Assembly (NCBI RefSeq): GCF_020215645.1
Contig: NZ_CP084058.1
Span: forward strand, 3,472,001-3,536,000
Reading direction: 5' to 3'
DNA from: Nonomuraea gerenzanensis
GTDB taxonomy: Bacteria; Actinomycetota; Actinomycetes; Streptosporangiales; Streptosporangiaceae
DNA length: 64,000 nucleotides
The notes beneath the pieces are model-generated. The model was not told the origin of the DNA. It did not search any database and worked only from the letters and a program-made list of their open reading frames with translations. Below, one piece after another: positions 40,954 through 63,191 of this stretch (position 1 is its first letter; each line of letters starts with the position of its first letter). Position numbers and translations under genes: made by a program.

Positions 40954-42261
40954 CTACAGCGCCGCCCGCCCCACCGCCTTCTGACGCCCGGACCAGGTGA
41001 AAAGTACACGCCTGAAGCCCTTGCCGTGCGACTGATCGACCCCGCCGAACGCCGTGTCGATGGCTCTCCGCGTCCTGTCCTCGCTGCCCGCCATCAAATG
41101 CGTGTACGTGCGCAACGTGTAGCCCGGGTCCTGATGCCCGAGGTACTCGGCCAGCGCCTTGATGGACTCGCCCGCGTGGAGCAACACGCTCGCGTAGTGG
41201 TGCCGGAGCGCGTGCATGCCGTGCTTGCGATACTCCTGGTTGCGCCGGCCCGGGATCGGGGCGGGCCGATCCTTGGGAATCACGCCAACCCGGACAAGGG
41301 CAGGCTTCCAGACGTACTCGTTGATGTAGTTGCGGTTCAGCGCCTTGGACTCCCTGCTGGTGACGATCAGCCGCAGAGTCCTCGGCCGCCCGTCCAGCTC
41401 CTCCCACGGCAGAGTGACCTCCCGCGCCGGAAACTTGGCCAGGTACTCCTCCAAGGCGCGAGCCACTGACTGGGGGAGTGGGATCGTCCGCTCGCGGTCG
41501 TGCTTGGGCAGGCCGAACAGCAGCTTGGCGCTGAGCATCTTGACCTGCTGCCGCACGTGAATGACCCTCGCCTCGAAATCCACGTCATCCACGGCGATAC
41601 CGAAGATCTCGCCCTGCCGAAGCCCGCACCCAGCGCCCAGAAGCGCCATGATGGCGTACCGCTCGGGCAACGCCTCGATCACTGCAAGGACGCGGTCCGT
41701 AGACCACGGCTCGATCTTCCGTTTCGGCAGCTTGGGCTTCTGCACGGTCTTCGCCGCGCATGGGTTCTTGGCGATCAGCTCATCGTCCACCGCACTTTCA
41801 AAGAGCTGGTCGAGGAAGGCGAGTACCCGTCCGGCCGTACTTGGCGCCAGCTTCTTCTCAAGCTGATTGACCCAGGTGCGGATCTCGCTCGGCCGGATTG
41901 CGCCGATCTCTCGGTTGCCGAACTTCGGCTTGATGTGCTTGTCCCAGTAGATGCGCCGAATCTGGCGTGTGGACGGGTCGGCCGACTGCGAGTTCAGCCA
42001 GTTCTCGGCGAAGACGACCAGACGGGTCTTGGCTCCATTCGGGTCGAGGTAGCGCCCTCGCGCCTTGTCGGCCTCCATGAGTGAGCCGTGGCGCTCGGCC
42101 TCGACCTTCTTGGCGAACGCCTTGGTCTGCTCTCGACCTTCGGGGTTGGTCCAAGCAGCTAACCAGCGCTTTCCCTTGCCGTGGCGCTTGGTCGGTTCTC
42201 GGTGGATGCTGCCGTCCGGCAGCGTGGTGGTCTTGAACCACAGGTCCCTGACGTGAGCCAT
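40954..42261 (-). CDS. int: Tyrosine site-specific recombinase (integrase)
   Basis: Integrates and excises the element. The 435-residue protein has an AP2-like N-terminal arm-binding region (KRWLAAWTNPEGREQTKAF), a SAM-like core-binding domain (about 80-165) and the catalytic domain. Catalytic residues R215 (GCGLRQGEI), H350 and R353 (HALRHHYAS), H376 (LGHQD) and Y386 (LRTYTHL) are all present, so it should be active. Gene order with the 3' end toward the left border is standard for AICEs and prophages. No excisionase gene is obvious next to it. Confidence 0.95.
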   Translation of the reverse strand: MAHVRDLWFKTTTLPDGSIHREPTKRHGKGKRWLAAWTNPEGREQTKAFAKKVEAERHGSLMEADKARGRYLDPNGAKTRLVVFAENWLNSQSADPSTRQIRRIYWDKHIKPKFGNREIGAIRPSEIRTWVNQLEKKLAPSTAGRVLAFLDQLFESAVDDELIAKNPCAAKTVQKPKLPKRKIEPWSTDRVLAVIEALPERYAIMALLGAGCGLRQGEIFGIAVDDVDFEARVIHVRQQVKMLSAKLLFGLPKHDRERTIPLPQSVARALEEYLAKFPAREVTLPWEELDGRPRTLRLIVTSRESKALNRNYINEYVWKPALVRVGVIPKDRPAPIPGRRNQEYRKHGMHALRHHYASVLLHAGESIKALAEYLGHQDPGYTLRTYTHLMAGSEDRTRRAIDTAFGGVDQSHGKGFRRVLFTWSGRQKAVGRAAL

Positions 42262-50060: not shown

Positions 50061-50711
50061 ATGGCGACCACGAAGAGGGGCCGACGCCGCCCCGTCACGC
50101 AGGCCATGAAGGACCGCAGCGCAGCCAGCCGCACCGCGGCGCGAGAAGCGCTGCACGCCTATGCCGTGCTGTGCCTCAACGACCCGGCCGAGCTGGAGCA
50201 GTTCCGGTCGATCGCCGCGAGCATCGGCTGGAAGCTCGACCCCGCCAGCGACGACCCCGGCTACTCGCTACAGAACGCGCTGCTCCTGGCCGCGCAGCGC
50301 CGACCGCTGACCCACTGCGGCGGCTTCGACTACTGGATCAGCCAGGGCCGGTGCGTGGCCGAGGGGGAGAAGTCGCTCGACACGTTCCGCCACATCGGCC
50401 GGAAGAAGACCGACGAGGAGAAGGCCAGGGAGAAGGAACTGGCCGACGACGGCTGGCAGTCCTCCAAGCGCGGGCCCCGCTACTACGTGAAGAAGGGCAC
50501 GTTCGACGTCGCCCAGACCGTGCCGCGCGAGCGGTGCCCGCACTGCGGCACGGCCCCGGCTGGCGAGGACGACCGCACCACGCAGTGCCCGCCGGACTGC
50601 GCCGTGTTCGTGCCCCGGCCCGTGTCCAAGCCGCCCCGCGTGATCGTCGTCGAGCTGCTGCAGGCCCAACTCCTCGACGGCGACGAGGCCGAGGGCGAGG
50701 CCGACCAGTGA
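50061..50711 (+). CDS. ArdC-N-like single-stranded DNA-binding protein
   Basis: A 216-residue protein. The region SLQNALLLAAQRRPLTHCGGFDYWISQGRCVAEGEKSL matches the ArdC N-terminal (DUF1738-type) pattern NxxLLxxQ...GFxxWxxxGRxVxxGEK. ArdC-type proteins protect incoming plasmid DNA from restriction by binding single strands. The end contains a CPHCG zinc pair and an acidic tail. The metallopeptidase domain of full ArdC is absent. Its stop overlaps the methyltransferase start. Confidence 0.65.
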   Translation: MATTKRGRRRPVTQAMKDRSAASRTAAREALHAYAVLCLNDPAELEQFRSIAASIGWKLDPASDDPGYSLQNALLLAAQRRPLTHCGGFDYWISQGRCVAEGEKSLDTFRHIGRKKTDEEKAREKELADDGWQSSKRGPRYYVKKGTFDVAQTVPRERCPHCGTAPAGEDDRTTQCPPDCAVFVPRPVSKPPRVIVVELLQAQLLDGDEAEGEADQ

Positions 50712-52312
50712 TCACGATCAGCCACACCCACGAGGAAGGCACCCTCGTGGACGGCACCGTCAAGGGCGACGGCGCCTGGGAGATCCTGCGCAAGCACGGC
50801 TTCCACTACTTCCGGTCCATCGGCATGATCGGGATCCGCCAGTCCCGGGACCAAGTGGCTAAGCGCTGGAAGATCAACGGCGCGGCTGACGCCCTGCGGG
50901 CGGCCGGGTTCGAGGTCACCGTCGAGATCGACGACACCCCGCGCGACCGCGCCCAGGTCCTCGCCGACCAAGCTGATCGGCTGGACGACCGGCGTGACGC
51001 GCTCGCGGCCAAGGCGCAGCGCCACGCCGGCAACGCGGCCTCGGCCGCCGACCGGGCCAACCAGCTCTCGGAGCGGTTCGCGGGCGGGCAACCGATCCTC
51101 ATCGGGCACCACTCCGAGCGCGGCGCTCGGCGCGACCAGAAGCGCATGGACTCCGCCATGCGCAAGAGCGTCGAGGAGGACCGGACCGCGCAGGAGGCCG
51201 CCCGCCGAGCCAACGCGGTCGGTCGCCAGGCTGCATACTCTGCTCGGCCGCGCGTCACCGCCCGCCGGATCCAGCGGCTGGAGGCGGACCTGCGGCGGGT
51301 ACAGCGCAACCTCGACGGCTACACGCGCAGGCACCTCCGGCACGACGGCACGCCCTACTACATCGACGAGCAGCCGCCCGCGAGCGGCGAGTACCGCGAA
51401 CAGCTCCTCGCGCAGAAGGACCACATCGAAAACCAGCTCGCCTACGACCGGCAGCAGCTCGCCGCCGCCACCGGGCAAGGTGAATTCGTCGAGTGGGGCA
51501 AGCACAACATCCACGTCGGCGACCGCGTATGGGCCTGGGGATACAACGGGCTCGCCCTCAAGACCAACCCCACCACGGTCAAGCTCGACTTCCGGGACCA
51601 CTGGAAGCCGAAGGTCAAGTACACAGACGTGGCCAAGGTCGAGTGCCCGCACGGCGACGAACCCACGGTCACCGTCCCCAACAAGCCCGCGCGCGCCCGG
51701 CCGGCGGCGCCGAAGGTGAACGTGCCGAAGCTCGACACGGACAAGCTCAAGGCCGCAGCGAACGTGGCCGACAGTGTGCGCGTCGGTCGGGACCGCGAGG
51801 CGTTCGTGTCACCGCCCGCCGTGGTGGACACCCTCATGGACCTGGCCGACATCTGGCCCGGCATGACGGTCCTGGAACCCTCGGCGGGCACCGGGAACAT
51901 CGCACTGGCGGCCGTCGAGCGGGGCGCTGTCGTGGACTGCGTCGAGATCGATTACAACCTGGCGACCGTCCTGACCAGCCGCGTCCCCGGCGCGAACGCC
52001 GCCTCTGTCCGTGACTTCCTGGACGTCGATCCGACCGAGCGCGACGGCTATGACCGGATCGTGATGAACCCGCCGTTCTCCGGCGGCAAGGACATCGCGC
52101 ACGTCACGCACGCGCTCGGCTTCCTCAAGCCCGGCGGGCGTCTCGTCGCGGTGATGGCTGCCGGGGTGCTGCACCAGAAGTTCAAGGCAGCCGAACGGTT
52201 CCGCGCCCTGGTCGAGGAGCGCGGCGGCTGGTTCGAGGAACTGCCCGAGGGGTCGTTCGCCCCTGTGACCGGCATCAACACGGTCGTCGTGGTCATCCCC
52301 GCCGAGCAGTAA
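50708..52312 (+). CDS. DUF3560 protein fused to an adenine-specific DNA methyltransferase
   Basis: A 534-residue two-part protein. Residues 1-160 or so match DUF3560 (FHYFRSIGMIGIRQSRDQVAKRW, GQPILIGHHSERGARRDQKRMD). A coiled-coil-rich middle (RRIQRLEADLRRVQRNLDG) follows. The C-terminal methyltransferase has SAM motif I LEPSAGTGNIALAAV (389-403) and catalytic N454-P-P-F457 (RIVMNPPFSGGKD), the gamma/beta-class N6-adenine pattern. It probably methylates element or host DNA. GTG start overlaps the ArdC-like stop. Such fusions occur in mobile elements; target sequence unknown. Confidence 0.82.
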   Translation: MITISHTHEEGTLVDGTVKGDGAWEILRKHGFHYFRSIGMIGIRQSRDQVAKRWKINGAADALRAAGFEVTVEIDDTPRDRAQVLADQADRLDDRRDALAAKAQRHAGNAASAADRANQLSERFAGGQPILIGHHSERGARRDQKRMDSAMRKSVEEDRTAQEAARRANAVGRQAAYSARPRVTARRIQRLEADLRRVQRNLDGYTRRHLRHDGTPYYIDEQPPASGEYREQLLAQKDHIENQLAYDRQQLAAATGQGEFVEWGKHNIHVGDRVWAWGYNGLALKTNPTTVKLDFRDHWKPKVKYTDVAKVECPHGDEPTVTVPNKPARARPAAPKVNVPKLDTDKLKAAANVADSVRVGRDREAFVSPPAVVDTLMDLADIWPGMTVLEPSAGTGNIALAAVERGAVVDCVEIDYNLATVLTSRVPGANAASVRDFLDVDPTERDGYDRIVMNPPFSGGKDIAHVTHALGFLKPGGRLVAVMAAGVLHQKFKAAERFRALVEERGGWFEELPEGSFAPVTGINTVVVVIPAEQ

Positions 52313-52726: not shown

Positions 52727-53899
52727 GTGAAGATCATCTTTTCGTACGGGCTCGGCCTGGACTCGACGGCGATCCTGCTGCGGTGGCTCACCGAGCCCGC
52801 GTCGCGCTGGTTCGACCTGCGGGACCTCGTGGTGGTGACGGCGCAGACGGGGGACGAGTGGGTGGAAACCGCCTACCTCGTAGAGCAGCACATCTATCCG
52901 CTGCTCGCCCGCCACGGCGTTCGCACCATCCAGGTCGCCCGCGCCGGCCGCCGCCAGGCGGATGGCATCGTAGTCCTCGACGACACCACCCACCCGATCC
53001 TCTGCCTGACCTCAGCGCCAGGCGCCTACCGGCTCAGCGAGGAACTGCTGTCGGTGGCGACCGTGCCCCAGTCCGGAGGGGTACGCAAATGCTCGCTGAA
53101 ATTCAAGGGCTGGGTCCTTGACCAGGTCATCGCCCAGATCGTCGGCGACGAGGAGTTCGTCCACGTCATCGGCTTCGAGGCAGGCGAGGCCAAGCGGATG
53201 ATGCGCGACATGCCGCTCGGCCCCGGCACGCGGATCCCGTCCTACCCGCTGATCGAGTGGGGCTGGTACCGCGACGACTGCGAGCAGTACGTCCTCGACC
53301 AGCTCGGCGTGAAATGGCCCAAGTCGGCATGCGTCCAGTGCCCCTACGCATTTTCGCTGGCAGAAGGCCGTGACCGGACCATCCCGCGCTACCTGGCCAA
53401 CCCCCATGAAGCGCTGCTCGGCCTCACGATGGAGCACCTGGCCGTCGCGGTGAACCCGCGCCAAGGGCTCCTCGCTGGCCAGCAGTTGTACGACCTCATC
53501 GCCTCGAACCCCGACAGCGGGCCGCTGCTGGACCTGTTCGAGCAGCACCTTGACCGCATGCCGTGGGCGATCTACGACGTGCGCCGCGCCATGGCGGCCA
53601 AGCCCGACGACGCGATGGCCCGCGGCCAGACCCACCGGTCGCTGGAACTCCTCGTCGAGGGCACCCGCGCCGACATGCTTGCCCACCTCGACCGGGCCGC
53701 GTACCTGCTCGGCCGCGAGGTCGAGACGGACGGCCGCCACCACCGGGTGTGGCTGCGGACCCGGAACCTCTACTACCCGTGCGTCGAGCACATCCTGACC
53801 GCCGCGCCCGCGCTGGCGCACGACAAGACCTATCGCTCCTTCGAGACGGCATGGCTGGCCGGGCTCAACGGGCCCGCCCAGCTCTCCCTCTCGTTCTAA
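52727..53899 (+). CDS. PAPS-reductase/DndC-like PP-loop protein
   Basis: A 390-residue ATP-pyrophosphatase-fold protein. The PP-loop is SYGLGLDST (6-14), close to the S-G-G-x-D-S pattern; a cysteine region RKCSLKFKG and the pair CVQCPYAFS follow, as in sulfurtransferases of the PAPS reductase/DndC family. Relatives insert sulfur into DNA (DndC/SspD), RNA or metabolites. None of DndB/D/E is nearby, and the first Gly-Gly of the PP-loop is changed, so the reaction cannot be assigned. GTG start after CCGGAG. It lies in the methyltransferase neighbourhood. Confidence 0.75.
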   Translation: MKIIFSYGLGLDSTAILLRWLTEPASRWFDLRDLVVVTAQTGDEWVETAYLVEQHIYPLLARHGVRTIQVARAGRRQADGIVVLDDTTHPILCLTSAPGAYRLSEELLSVATVPQSGGVRKCSLKFKGWVLDQVIAQIVGDEEFVHVIGFEAGEAKRMMRDMPLGPGTRIPSYPLIEWGWYRDDCEQYVLDQLGVKWPKSACVQCPYAFSLAEGRDRTIPRYLANPHEALLGLTMEHLAVAVNPRQGLLAGQQLYDLIASNPDSGPLLDLFEQHLDRMPWAIYDVRRAMAAKPDDAMARGQTHRSLELLVEGTRADMLAHLDRAAYLLGREVETDGRHHRVWLRTRNLYYPCVEHILTAAPALAHDKTYRSFETAWLAGLNGPAQLSLSF

Positions 53900-53931: not shown

Positions 53932-54207
53932 ATGAACCGCCACTCCGCAGTACCCCCTGCCCAAAATCACTCCGCAAAGGCGCTCGTCAAAGCGAACCGA
54001 GCCCTGCGGGCCGTGTCCGTGTTCTGGTCATTCCCCGGCCGCTACGAGGCGGTCGTCACGGCCACCGGCCGCATCATCTACCGCCAGGTCCCCGAGATGA
54101 TCCGCATGCCGCTCCTCATCGAGGGCGAGCTGGCCAAGGCTGTCGCGCAGACCCGCGCCGCGCGGGCCGCCGTCGAGGAGTCGTCCCGCAGGGAGTCCGG
54201 GTGCTGA
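53932..54207 (+). CDS. Small element protein, unknown
   Basis: A 91-residue protein (MNRHSAVPPAQNHSAKALVK...). AAAGG precedes the ATG. Mixed helix/strand with no known domain; overlaps the methyltransferase start by seven bases, so it is made with that enzyme and could be its accessory protein. Confidence 0.55.
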   Translation: MNRHSAVPPAQNHSAKALVKANRALRAVSVFWSFPGRYEAVVTATGRIIYRQVPEMIRMPLLIEGELAKAVAQTRAARAAVEESSRRESGC

Positions 54208-57200
54208 ACCGGCTCTTCCCCGACGACATCGACGTTGTCGAGATGTTCGCGGGCGGTGGCGGCTCCGGGACCGGGATCGCCGCCGTCCCCGGCACCAAGA
54301 TTAGGTTCGCCGCCAACCACGCTAAGCCCGCCAAGTGGACGTACGTCGAAAACCACCCCGACGTGGACTTCTGGCTCGGCGACGTCCAGCAGGCCGACGC
54401 CATCGAGAAGTTCCCGTACGCCAGCTTCTTCTGGGCCTCGCCGGCCTGCTTCGTCGCGGGCACACTCATCCTCACCCGTCGTGGCCTCGTTCCGATCGAG
54501 GACGTCCGCGAAGGCGACGAGGTGTTCACCCACCAGCGCCGCTGGCGTCTGGTGACCGGCACCATGAGCAAACTTGCTCCCACCGTCATCGTGTCCGGCA
54601 AGGGCTTCCACCAGGGCATCGAAACCACTGCCGAGCACCCCTTCTACACCCGGAAGCGAACCCGGACCTGGGACAACGACGCCCGCACCTACCGATACTC
54701 CGTCGCCGAAGAATCCGAATGGACCGAAGCGAAGGACCTCGGGCCGGGCATCTGCTGGGCGACCCCGACCGACTTCGGTGAAGCGCTGCCGGTGCCGGAG
54801 GTCGGCGGGCGCGGCATGAAGTTCACGCCGGAGTTCTGGTGGATGGTCGGCCGGTGGGTCGGAGACGGCTGGCTACGAGCTAAGCGATCAACCAAACTCG
54901 ACCCCAAGCCGCGCCGACGCTCCCAACCGGCTGGATCGCCGTGCGTGATGTGCGGCGGCAAGACACGACAGCACGGCAAGAGCACCACGGGCCGTGTCCG
55001 ACTGTTCTGCTCGGACACGTGCAGGCGAGCCAGTGTCCGCCGCAACCCTCATCACGGGCGGTACGACCTGGCCATCACCTGCGGCTACCACGAGGTGGAG
55101 GACCTGGCCCAGAGGCTTCACGGCCTCGACGAGCTGACCTGGAACCGAGGCCGAACCAAGACCGCCGCCCGGTTCGTCGCGTCACACCGGGGCCTGGTCG
55201 AGTGGATGGCCGAGCACTTCGGGCAGCACGCCCACGGCAAGACCATCCCCGCGTGGGCGATGACCATGCCGCGAGCGTGGCGTGAGGCGCTGCTCGACGG
55301 CTACCTGTCGGCGGACGGCACCAAGGACGCGAAGTACACCAGGGCGTCCACCGTGTCCAAGAAGCTGGCGATCGGCATCCGGATGCTGGCCAACTCCCTG
55401 GGGCACGTCGCCAACCTTGGCTACCAGTCCGCCCGCAAGCGGCAGCGCGTCATCGACAGGAGGGCCGTCAACGAGCGGCCGACGTGGACCGTGTCCTGGA
55501 TCACGGCCGGGCCGCAGCGCTTCCAGTACACCGAAGCCGAAGGCCACCGCTGGTCGAACACCCACCACCCGGCCCCCACCGGCCGCCTGGAACTGGTCTA
55601 CAACATCCACGTCGCCGACGACGAGTCCTACGTCGCGGACGGCATCACCGTCCACAACTGCCCCGCGTTCTCCACGGCCTCGGGCGAGACGAGGTATTTC
55701 GACAAGGAAAACCAGATGGCCTTGTGGGCCGACGACCTGGACAACCTGACCGAGCACCAGAAGACCCGCATTCGGTCCCGGGCGCTCATGGAGGAGGTCG
55801 TCACCTACCTGCGCCACTGCCAGGAGAAGCACGGCAAGCCCGTGCTCGGGTTTGGCGTCGAGAACGTCGTCCAGGCGAGGTTGTGGGCGCACTGGGACCG
55901 GTGGATTCGCGAGCTGCGGAAGCTCGGCTACATCATCCAGATCCACGCCGTCAACGCCGCGCACGTCCAGGGCCGCACCACGCTGCCGACCCCGCAGTCC
56001 CGCGACCGGATGCTCATCTCCGGCATCCACGAGTCCGTGGGCCGGACGCCGAACTACCGCAAGTGGTTCGACCCGTACGCGTTCTGCCCCCGCCACGGCG
56101 GATGGGTGCAGGCCGTCCGCGCGTGGAAGAAGCGCGGCACCGACATGGGCGTCTACGGCATCAAGAACGGCCAGTACGTGTGGGTGTGCCCCGAGGTCGC
56201 CTGCCAGGGACAGCTCATCGAACCGCCCCGTCTACCGGCCGCGTACACGATCGACTGGACCGACCTCGGCACCCCAATCGGGTCCAGGAAGAAGACCAAG
56301 AAGAAGCCCGAGGGCCTGGCCCCGAAGACGATCGCCCGCATCCGCGCCGGAGTCGAGGAACATTGGATCAAGCCGTTCATCACGCCCGCTGGCGGCACCT
56401 GGAACGACGGGCCCAGGGGAGTGGACGAGCCGATCCCCGCGCTCACCACGCGCGAAGCCAACGCGCTCGTCGTGCCATGCGAAGGCCGGGACGGGAAGGT
56501 AGCGCGGCCGGTCAACATGCCGAAGCGGACCAGCACCACCCGGAATGAGGACGGCATCGCTTTCCCCCCGGACGCGCAGCCAGGCGTGTTCCCCTCGTTC
56601 CTGTCGCTGATGCGCTCGGGTAGGCCGCGTAACACCGACCCGACCACGGACCCGCTGGCGACCCTTGTCTCGAACGGCTCCAACCACGGGCTGGCCACTG
56701 ACCCGGCCTTCAAGGACGACATGTTGCCGCTGGTGTTCCCGTTCCGGGGCGGTGGCGACGAGTTCAAGTCGAGGCCCGCGTTCGAGGACCCCGCGCACGC
56801 GGTCACGGCCGGCGGCTTCCACCACGGGCTCGGCGTCCCTCCCGGTTGGCAGCCGCCGCCAGCGCTGATCATGCGGAACAACGGCTCCAAGGGTGATGGG
56901 CGTGAGCACGTCACCCCAACGAGCGAACACATGCGCACGGTCACCACGACCGGGCACCAGTCGCTCGTCACCGCGCCGCCCGGCCTGCCCCTGCCCGAGA
57001 CGCTGCTCATGGCGTACTACGGCAACGGCCGCACGCAGAGCGTGCACGAGCCCATGGGGACGATCCCGACCCGCGACCGGTGGGCGCTGCTCACCCCGGA
57101 CGGCCAGATCGACGTGTCGTCCATCCTGTTCCGGATGCTTCGGATCCCGGAGCTCCAGCGGGCCCAGTCGTTCCCGGACCGCTACGTGTTCGTCGCCGAC

Positions 57201-57332
57201 TCCGCCCGCGACAAGGTCAAGTTGATCGGCAACGCGGTCCCACCGCCCATGGCCGAGATCCTGACATGCGCCCTGATCGAGGCGTTCCTGGGCATCGAGC
57301 TGTCCAGGTTCGATTACGACGTCGCAGCTTGA
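54201..57332 (+). CDS. C5-cytosine DNA methyltransferase interrupted by an intein
   Basis: A 1043-residue precursor that would splice to a 639-residue methyltransferase. The host parts have the SAM motif VVEMFAGGGGSGTGI (12-26), the split catalytic motif ASPA/CPAFS, ENV at 554-556 (GFGVENVVQ), QSRDRM and the closing GNAVPP (1010-1015). The intein (83-486) starts with Cys and ends His-Asn before the catalytic Cys487, see the separate entry. The enzyme methylates DNA cytosine and may protect the element. GTG start overlaps the small upstream gene. Unspliced, the enzyme has no contiguous active site and should be inactive. Confidence 0.92.
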   Translation: MLNRLFPDDIDVVEMFAGGGGSGTGIAAVPGTKIRFAANHAKPAKWTYVENHPDVDFWLGDVQQADAIEKFPYASFFWASPACFVAGTLILTRRGLVPIEDVREGDEVFTHQRRWRLVTGTMSKLAPTVIVSGKGFHQGIETTAEHPFYTRKRTRTWDNDARTYRYSVAEESEWTEAKDLGPGICWATPTDFGEALPVPEVGGRGMKFTPEFWWMVGRWVGDGWLRAKRSTKLDPKPRRRSQPAGSPCVMCGGKTRQHGKSTTGRVRLFCSDTCRRASVRRNPHHGRYDLAITCGYHEVEDLAQRLHGLDELTWNRGRTKTAARFVASHRGLVEWMAEHFGQHAHGKTIPAWAMTMPRAWREALLDGYLSADGTKDAKYTRASTVSKKLAIGIRMLANSLGHVANLGYQSARKRQRVIDRRAVNERPTWTVSWITAGPQRFQYTEAEGHRWSNTHHPAPTGRLELVYNIHVADDESYVADGITVHNCPAFSTASGETRYFDKENQMALWADDLDNLTEHQKTRIRSRALMEEVVTYLRHCQEKHGKPVLGFGVENVVQARLWAHWDRWIRELRKLGYIIQIHAVNAAHVQGRTTLPTPQSRDRMLISGIHESVGRTPNYRKWFDPYAFCPRHGGWVQAVRAWKKRGTDMGVYGIKNGQYVWVCPEVACQGQLIEPPRLPAAYTIDWTDLGTPIGSRKKTKKKPEGLAPKTIARIRAGVEEHWIKPFITPAGGTWNDGPRGVDEPIPALTTREANALVVPCEGRDGKVARPVNMPKRTSTTRNEDGIAFPPDAQPGVFPSFLSLMRSGRPRNTDPTTDPLATLVSNGSNHGLATDPAFKDDMLPLVFPFRGGGDEFKSRPAFEDPAHAVTAGGFHHGLGVPPGWQPPPALIMRNNGSKGDGREHVTPTSEHMRTVTTTGHQSLVTAPPGLPLPETLLMAYYGNGRTQSVHEPMGTIPTRDRWALLTPDGQIDVSSILFRMLRIPELQRAQSFPDRYVFVADSARDKVKLIGNAVPPPMAEILTCALIEAFLGIELSRFDYDVAA
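54447..55658 (+). other. Intein with LAGLIDADG homing endonuclease inside the methyltransferase
   Basis: 404 residues, C83 to N486. Block A is CFVAGTLILTRRGLVPIEDV, block B TTAEHPFYTRKR, and blocks F/G are YNIHVADDESYVADGITVHN, so Cys1, the TxxH, the penultimate His and terminal Asn needed for splicing are all present. Two LAGLIDADG-like helices flank the endonuclease (FWWMVGRWVGDGWLR near 212 and ALLDGYLSADGTKD near 364). A CVMC/CSDTC zinc-finger insertion lies at 248-274. The +1 residue Cys487 is the methyltransferase's catalytic cysteine, so splicing rebuilds the active site. Confidence 0.93.
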
Positions 57333-62189: not shown

Positions 62190-63191
62190 TCACGCGGTGG
62201 GATCGGAAGCGACCACCAGAACACCACGACGCCGGACGGCCGACCGGCCCCCGGGCAAGTTCACGGCCTTCTGCCCGTGCCAGTGCGTCACCAACCGGTC
62301 CAGGGCCCGCACATGAGTGGCCGACAGCACGCCGGACGGGGAGCCCGCGGCGATGGCCGCCCGGCGCAGTACCCGTCGTCTTACCGCGTCGGGAAGCTTC
62401 TCCAGCTCGGCCACGACCAGGGTCACCGACTCGCCAAGGTCGCCTCGTACAGAGTGTTGGTAAGCCGAGTCGGCCCACTCGTCGAGCGCGTCGGCGTCTT
62501 CCCGCGCGAGCGCGGCGGTTCGAGCCAGCGCCTCGATCACCCCCGGCCCCAGCTCTTGCTCCAGGAGTGGAAGGATCTTGTGGCGCACTCGGACGCGGGT
62601 GTAGCGCAGGTCGGCGTTGTGCGGGTCGTCCCACGGGGTGAGGTTCTGCGCCCGGCAGGCGGCCACGGTGGTAGCCCTGGGAAGATGCAGGAGGGGGCGC
62701 CGGTAGCGCCCCGTCGTGGCCGCCATGCCGGACAGGGACCGGGGTCCGCTGCCCCTGGCCAGCCCGAGAAGCACGGTTTCGGCCTGGTCGTCGAGGGTGT
62801 GTCCGAGCAGCACGGCCGATGCGCCATGCCGGTCGGCTGCCTCGCTGAGCGCGGCATACCGGACCTCTCGTGCTGCCGCCTCTGGGCCGCCCTCCCCGCC
62901 CACGGTGACGGTGAGGACTTCCGCGGGGGTGAGGCCGAGGTCCGTGCCCAGGGCCGCCACGGTTTCCGCCCTCTGGCGCGAGCCCTCTTGGAGTTGGTGA
63001 TCCACGGTCAGCAGGCCGGCGCGCAAGCGGAGGCGTGGGGCGACGAAGGCCAGTGCTGCAGCCAGGGCCAGCGAGTCGGCCCCGCCGCTGCAGGCGGTGA
63101 GAATGAGCGCGTCCTTCTGGACGTCGGTCAGGGCTTCGCGGACGGCTCGGCGGACGTCGGCTACGGCTGGATGCGGACCCACATGTGTCAT
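62190..63191 (-). CDS. tilS: tRNA(Ile)-lysidine synthase
   Basis: Converts C34 of tRNA-Ile(CAU) to lysidine so that it reads AUA as isoleucine. The 333-residue protein has the PP-loop SGGADS at 35-40 ([18 protein letters not shown]), the [19 protein letters not shown] motif and the RYRRPLL block, plus the TilS middle domain ([20 protein letters not shown]). Length is normal for actinobacteria. Chromosomal tilS normally lies beside hpt and ftsH; here it follows a small gene in the mobile element with 21 bp between, so it is likely a cargo copy. Confidence 0.9.

Follow-up and report, generated by a model that had tools for sequence, protein, structure and literature searches.

A LAGLIDADG-type intein directly before the catalytic cysteine of a presumed prophage C5-cytosine methyltransferase in Nonomuraea gerenzanensis

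Among the literature matches listed, the systems closest to the element described here are the inteins of actinophage DNA methylases (PMC5050341, PMC9957025, and PMC11855218), and in the available text of the first two papers, the DNMT-1/2 inteins appear as patchily distributed, horizontally moving elements of phage DNA methylases. Among the literature matches listed, with subscription journals and InBase outside the scope of the search, there was no report of an intein in a C5-cytosine methyltransferase, and none is described in the sections examined of PMC8616854, PMC11437467, PMC3653736, and PMC8594841 (which also cites a table of inteins). We analysed a 64,000-nucleotide stretch of the Nonomuraea gerenzanensis genome (contig NZ_CP084058.1, positions 3,472,001 to 3,536,000; hereafter the window), in which a gene for a C5-cytosine DNA methyltransferase is interrupted by an intein at 54447..55658 on the forward strand. 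Sequence, structure prediction, empty alleles, conservation, and tree conflict together make it very probable that this is a class-1 LAGLIDADG homing intein in a probably orphan prophage methyltransferase, which splices, activates the enzyme, and homes; that the element splices and cuts DNA, that the precursor is inactive, and what methylation is for are predictions from this evidence.

The interrupted gene (54201..57332, +; GTG start, with an upstream AGGGAG read by eye) encodes a precursor of 1,043 amino acids (aa) in a single continuous reading frame, which rules out a split or trans-splicing intein. It comprises a cysteine-free N-extein of 82 aa (54201..54446, +), an intein of 404 aa (54447..55658, +; precursor residues 83–486), and a C-extein of 557 aa (55659..57329, +). 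The boundaries given in an earlier note on this DNA proved exact, the intein lying between ...FFWASPA and CPAFSTASG, and all of the splicing residues named there were located, i.e. Cys1 as the first intein codon (54447-54449, +), the block B sequence T-A-E-H (TxxH; residues 143–146, 54627..54638, +), and the His-Asn pair (485–486) followed by Cys+1 (487) at 55653..55661 (+). The two LAGLIDADG-like stretches are WMVGRWVGDG (residues 214–223, 54840..54869, +) and LLDGYLSADG (residues 364–373, 55290..55319, +), each with one acidic residue (Asp222 and Asp372, respectively), as expected of a LAGLIDADG homing endonuclease. The zinc-finger insertion of the earlier note corresponds to a zinc-ribbon-like element between them (Cys248-x2-Cys251 ... 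Cys270-x3-Cys274; 54942..55022, +), and the surrounding region (residues 248–292) matches an IS1249 transposase model weakly, far under the cut-off.

Residues 83–486 match the Pfam model Hint_2 (E 1.3e-7), the intein C-terminus model TIGR01443 (E 2.5e-6), and LAGLIDADG_3 (E 0.0013, under the Pfam cut-off), and 305 database proteins match this stretch at E ≤0.001, more than chance would explain. The exteins (residues 1–82 and 487–1043) match PF00145 (E 1.7e-16), and the NCBIfam dcm model matches the methyltransferase below its cut-off. Since the dcm and LAGLIDADG_3 matches both fall below their cut-offs, the two names rest on further evidence. In the predicted structure (mean predicted local distance difference test score, pLDDT, 70.2; predicted template modelling score 0.46), the nearest solved folds are the VMA inteins TliVMA (7qsu, 7qss) and PI-SceI, and I-DmoI structures are among the Foldseek matches. 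The Hint fold, Cys1, TAEH, HN, and C+1, together with homologues that lack the insert, place the element among the class-1 inteins. Neither a second Hint_2 domain nor a second copy of the methyltransferase gene was found in the same genome.

The exteins carry the C5-methyltransferase motifs, numbered in the usual way: the S-adenosylmethionine-binding motif I (FAGGGGS, 54246-54266), motif IV (Pro-x-Cys; CPAFS at the start of the C-extein), motif VI (ENV, within 55854-55868), motif VIII (QxRxR; QSRDR, 55995-56012), and motif X (GNxVPP; GNAVPP, 57228-57245), all on the forward strand. Two cysteine pairs, CPRHG and CPEVAC, also lie in the C-extein (between 55659 and 57329, +). The intein splits motif IV (SPA|CPAFS). 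Whether Cys+1 aligns with the catalytic cysteine of Dcm-type enzymes was checked by building a profile from alignment A1, which holds 26 relatives lacking the intein, and comparing it with the sequences of the Protein Data Bank (PDB); the invariant Pro-x-Cys of the profile aligns with the PPC of M.HaeIII; at the aligned cysteine position, the M.HaeIII structure 3ubt has a serine, and its PDB title names a C71S mutant. This alignment identifies the residue after the intein as the methyltransferase nucleophile, as the earlier note had proposed. For P1 Dmt, Lactobacillus phage Nyseid, and EBPR siphovirus 2, a PF00145 match starts with the post-intein residue, at profile position 71. The view that the same cysteine must act both as the +1 nucleophile of splicing and as the nucleophile of the methyltransferase is supported. 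Because one cysteine would be needed for both reactions, the unspliced enzyme should be inactive, and the anatomy gives good support to the dependence of methyltransferase activity on splicing, which the earlier note anticipated. Sharing of the nucleophile may also explain why an intein at this place has to stay splicing-competent.

We envisage that the intein invaded the methyltransferase gene at a very conserved stretch, the codons around the catalytic motif IV, and that the precursor is produced as a single chain. The intein would excise by means of Cys1 and the catalytic cysteine of the enzyme as the +1 nucleophile, ligating ASPA to CPAFS; in the unspliced chain, that cysteine would still be attached to the intein and the loop of motif IV would be interrupted, leaving the methyltransferase inactive. 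The spliced enzyme would then methylate DNA, probably protecting the phage against restriction, and the endonuclease domain would cut intein-free alleles at the site, into which the intein would be copied.

Intein-free alleles are present in the same genus. Among 98 relatives, in which an orthologue was counted if the whole C-extein (487 to 1042/1043) matched at 73% or more, six qualify. One carries the intein (G008, 93% identity across the entire precursor), and five do not, with C-extein identities of 98% (G040), 98% (G024), 90% (G039), 88% (G036), and 73% (G042). The intein is hence present in two of seven full-length close orthologues, including that of the window genome. Partial matches were left out, namely an intein-free 300-aa frame in G053 and fragments in G003, G005, and G009. 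DNA alignments to the intein-free alleles (blastn) break at 54436-54449 and 55658-55659; these breaks were used for the edges of the insert, and the global alignments of loci L006 and L007, in which the N-extein was misplaced, were dropped. The intein-free loci L003, L004, and L005 also align with DNA upstream of the gene, and two viral contigs (81 and 95 kb) carry copies at 88–91% identity in which a match of ∼1.9 kb leaves no space for an intein. By segment, the C-extein DNA of the window is 95.9–97.0% identical to the intein-free L003, 92.9–94.0% to the intein-free L004, and 92.3–95.3% to the intein-bearing allele of N. antri, consistent with closely related prophages having gained, lost, or recombined the intein; G008 and N. 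antri (L002, L112) had identical figures in this comparison. In the same genus, genome G050 contains a further methyltransferase/intein-like stretch (L018) with two TGA stops inside the N-terminal match.

To place the intein in its family, the best 120 of 627 and the best 120 of 305 protein matches were merged, which gave 209 different proteins. Because the intein itself was the seed of the second search, the share of carriers is no estimate of prevalence. A related intein was found in 134 of the 209 listed proteins, and 130 of these were kept as having the same site, each with Cys+1. With the window included, 135 of 210 rows hold more than 300 aa between the junctions; these 135 rows, used for the conservation tallies, include four with other sites or several inteins (P0046, P0125, P0129, and P0203; two, three, and two intein matches were seen in P0125, P0129, and P0203, respectively). 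Position 1 is covered in 133 of the 135 rows and is cysteine in every one of them, the threonine of TxxH is T or S in 135/135, and His146 and the terminal Asn are found in 135/135. Asp222 is D in 133 and E in 2 of the 135 rows, Asp372 is D in all 135, and the zinc ribbon is confined to a subgroup (28/135). By direct recount, the residue right after Asn is Cys in 134/135 rows; with the four rows named above set aside, the corresponding figure is 131/131, and Cxx(x)S/T follows in 129/131. The sequence at the insertion site varies between SPA/SPE|C and the classical GGPP|CQAFS.

Scans of one genome per species and of viral contigs yielded 78 and 59 loci, respectively. Among the 65 frames at E ≤1e-60, which were classified apart from 83 weaker ones, Cxx(x)S/T follows the intein in 61 (21 genomic and 40 viral), and four represent other sites; the 61 include L222, which fits the motif IV pattern although its insert lies, by eye, before motif IV. 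The C-extein profile also matches 52 of the 61, and for the remaining nine, the motif is the basis for assigning the host family. The titles of the 21 genome frames, several of them metagenome-assembled, include Nonomuraea, Streptomyces, Acrocarpospora, Acetatifactor and other Clostridia, Dokdonella, Accumulibacter, Gellertiella, Syntrophorhabdus, Flexilinea, and a Chthoniobacterales bacterium. As judged from these sequences, methyltransferases from other bacteria and phages carry related inteins at this position, which lies beyond the scope of the earlier note. Related inteins also occur elsewhere in methyltransferase-like proteins, after ENV in L211 and at ATAN|C in L224. In the viral contig locus L191, an intein-family match of ∼800 aa extends from a motif I cysteine (DWF|C) to motif IV, perhaps representing two inteins in one gene.

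The trees of the intein and of its host protein conflict. Removal of the four rows with other sites or several inteins left 131 rows, and exclusion of three with short exteins left 128, in which mean identity is 45.0% for the intein and 32.6% for the C-extein. Of 8,128 pairs, 3,466 have an intein identity at least 15 points above that of the C-extein, and 14 show a difference of this size in the opposite direction; between P0041 and P0043, identity is 78.8% in the intein and 37.7% in the C-extein. The intein and C-extein trees have 24 of 125 splits in common, 16 of 43 well-supported intein splits clash with a well-supported C-extein split, and the approximately unbiased test rejects the C-extein topology for the intein data (log-likelihood difference 3562; 1,000 replicates, a number on which the program warned). 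This conflict points to a mobile homing element. Against N. antri, the ratio of nonsynonymous to synonymous substitution rates (dN/dS) is 0.18 in the intein, 0.22 in its endonuclease part, and 0.14 in the C-extein; against each of two intein-free alleles tested, it is 0.08 in the C-extein. A fossil that still splices but is vertically inherited with a dead endonuclease would agree with the presence of the intein in only two of the seven close orthologues, these two being ∼8% apart in DNA; both endonuclease acids are kept, however, dN/dS is ∼0.22 in that part, and the tree conflict is strong and family-wide, and we consider this history very unlikely. It is extremely unlikely that the insert fails to splice and that the methyltransferase gene is dead: splicing is a prediction, and the relative P0004 is shorter and has lost similarity in its C-extein, but every splicing residue of the window intein is intact, and the dN/dS values of 0.14 and 0.08 indicate purifying selection on the C-extein. 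P0004 itself (Nonomuraea sp. NPDC049028) is a protein of 757 aa in which the intein is 94% identical and the C-extein 54% over 247 residues, so that it may combine a retained intein with a defective methyltransferase part.

The earlier note had also raised redox- or condition-dependent splicing, which gained no positive support here, with no partner cysteine at the junction. On that proposal, the intein would have been domesticated as a conditional switch in which oxidation, zinc, or another signal slows or blocks splicing and so gates prophage methylation. The shared nucleophile would make any such block absolute, and a noncatalytic cysteine, Cys294, is kept in 120/135 rows, whereas Cys185 is kept in 3/135. 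Cys294, however, lies between the two LAGLIDADG motifs, the N-extein of the window has no cysteine, and the last 10 N-extein residues contain one in only 6 of 129 rows (2 of the 131 were left out of this count). The available text of PMC6195587 describes oxidant-controlled splicing of a DnaB intein through Cys48-Cys118 and calls the partner Cys48 non-conserved; for this reason, the cysteine counts argue only weakly against a switch. Near-invariant endonuclease acids and patchy alleles would nevertheless be expected if the element is a parasite, not if it is maintained as a switch, and domestication seems unlikely. Similarly improbable, in our estimate, is a timed or signal-dependent gate, in which the methyltransferase would have no chemical activity before the intein is removed and methylation of phage DNA would come after a delay or under a given condition; if it existed, one intein lineage would have put the C5-methyltransferase nucleophile under post-translational control in many phages, including the P1-like ones. 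The near-invariant endonuclease acids, the patchy presence, and the tree conflict are explained by selfish homing, and no regulatory role is needed.

The gene lies in a presumed prophage. A tyrosine integrase (40954..42261, −) is taken as that of the prophage, and terminase, portal, head, tape-measure, and tail genes are located 94–119 kb from the window start, beyond the window. Between the integrase and the structural genes lie the methyltransferase gene, the adjoining gene for a PAPS-reductase-like protein (PHROG 424; 52727..53899, +), and a gene for DUF3560 fused to a second methyltransferase-like domain (50171..52312, +), which matches long phage proteins (PHROGs) and mads_2 (PADLOC). In 10 neighbouring open reading frames (ORFs), PADLOC matched methyltransferase, homing-endonuclease, mads_2, and one HTH models and no restriction endonuclease model (for the precursor, 25 of 33 families shown); on this basis, the phage methyltransferase is probably an orphan. 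Enzymes of this kind are usually taken to serve anti-restriction. The presumed prophage also carries a TilS-like tRNA lysidine synthetase gene (62190-63191, −), 79% identical to a second genomic copy.

Several points weigh against the homing-intein reading preferred here. The junctions are predicted with low confidence (pLDDT <50 at residues 80–84 and 488–528), the penultimate His is absent in 16 of 135 rows (present in 119), and P0129, which carries several inteins, has Gln after His-Asn. The intein dN/dS values derive from one pair only (N. antri), the identity gap between intein and C-extein may stem in part from faster-evolving target domains of the methyltransferase, and the probable orphan status rests on the 10 neighbouring ORFs.

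An intein-plus and an intein-free state are found side by side in the P1 group. In the phage collection, the P1 isolate OP279344.1 has an intein in Dmt (GGTP|CFTAGH...VVHN|CQAFS), the product being named only Dmt in its record, whereas direct alignment showed Dmt without an intein in reference P1 (AF234172) and P7; NC_005856, equal in length to AF234172, matches across 60% of the dmt gene. Among 5,426 complete Escherichia coli genomes, the dmt gene is matched in 493 (some in part only) and the Dmt intein stretch in 152, all at 99% or more, its places being plasmid in 148 cases and chromosomal in four. The OP279344.1 locus (L253) and the empty loci L259 and L260 differ at silent codons just before the insertion site, which is perhaps a trace of co-conversion. 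No description of this intein was found among the matches listed in the literature searched. Since both alleles exist side by side, a neutral and a regulatory role can be directly tested against each other; the analysis yielded no better experimental handle than this presence/absence pair, and the P1 group offers a tractable laboratory system for an intein at an enzyme's own nucleophile.

In comparison with known systems, TliVMA and PI-SceI likewise combine an intein splicing domain with a LAGLIDADG endonuclease but reside in VMA and share ∼16% sequence identity with the window intein. According to the available text of PMC6195587, Mycobacterium DnaB intein 1 is also an active-site insertion in which a splicing residue, the P-loop serine, works in the mature enzyme; it is, however, a mini-intein without an endonuclease, and no counterpart of its Cys48-Cys118 redox pair was identified in the window intein. 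A known actinophage methylase intein was ruled out as the identity of the element, as host family and site differ: the hosts listed in the accessible part of PMC5050341 are N6/N4 methylases, whereas that of the window belongs to PF00145, and the intein of mycobacteriophage Pacc40 is 27% identical to the window intein, with gp60 being a PF01555 host that carries the insert at another kind of site. The P1-like Dmt intein of OP279344.1 is a related intein at the same catalytic cysteine of a C5-methyltransferase domain, but it has 341 aa, its translation shows by eye no CxxC zinc-ribbon pair, and its host contains a D12 adenine methyltransferase domain in addition, Dmt being annotated in AF234172 as bifunctional, for adenine and perhaps C5 cytosine. 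The finding points to the catalytic cysteine of C5-methyltransferases as a widespread intein insertion site.
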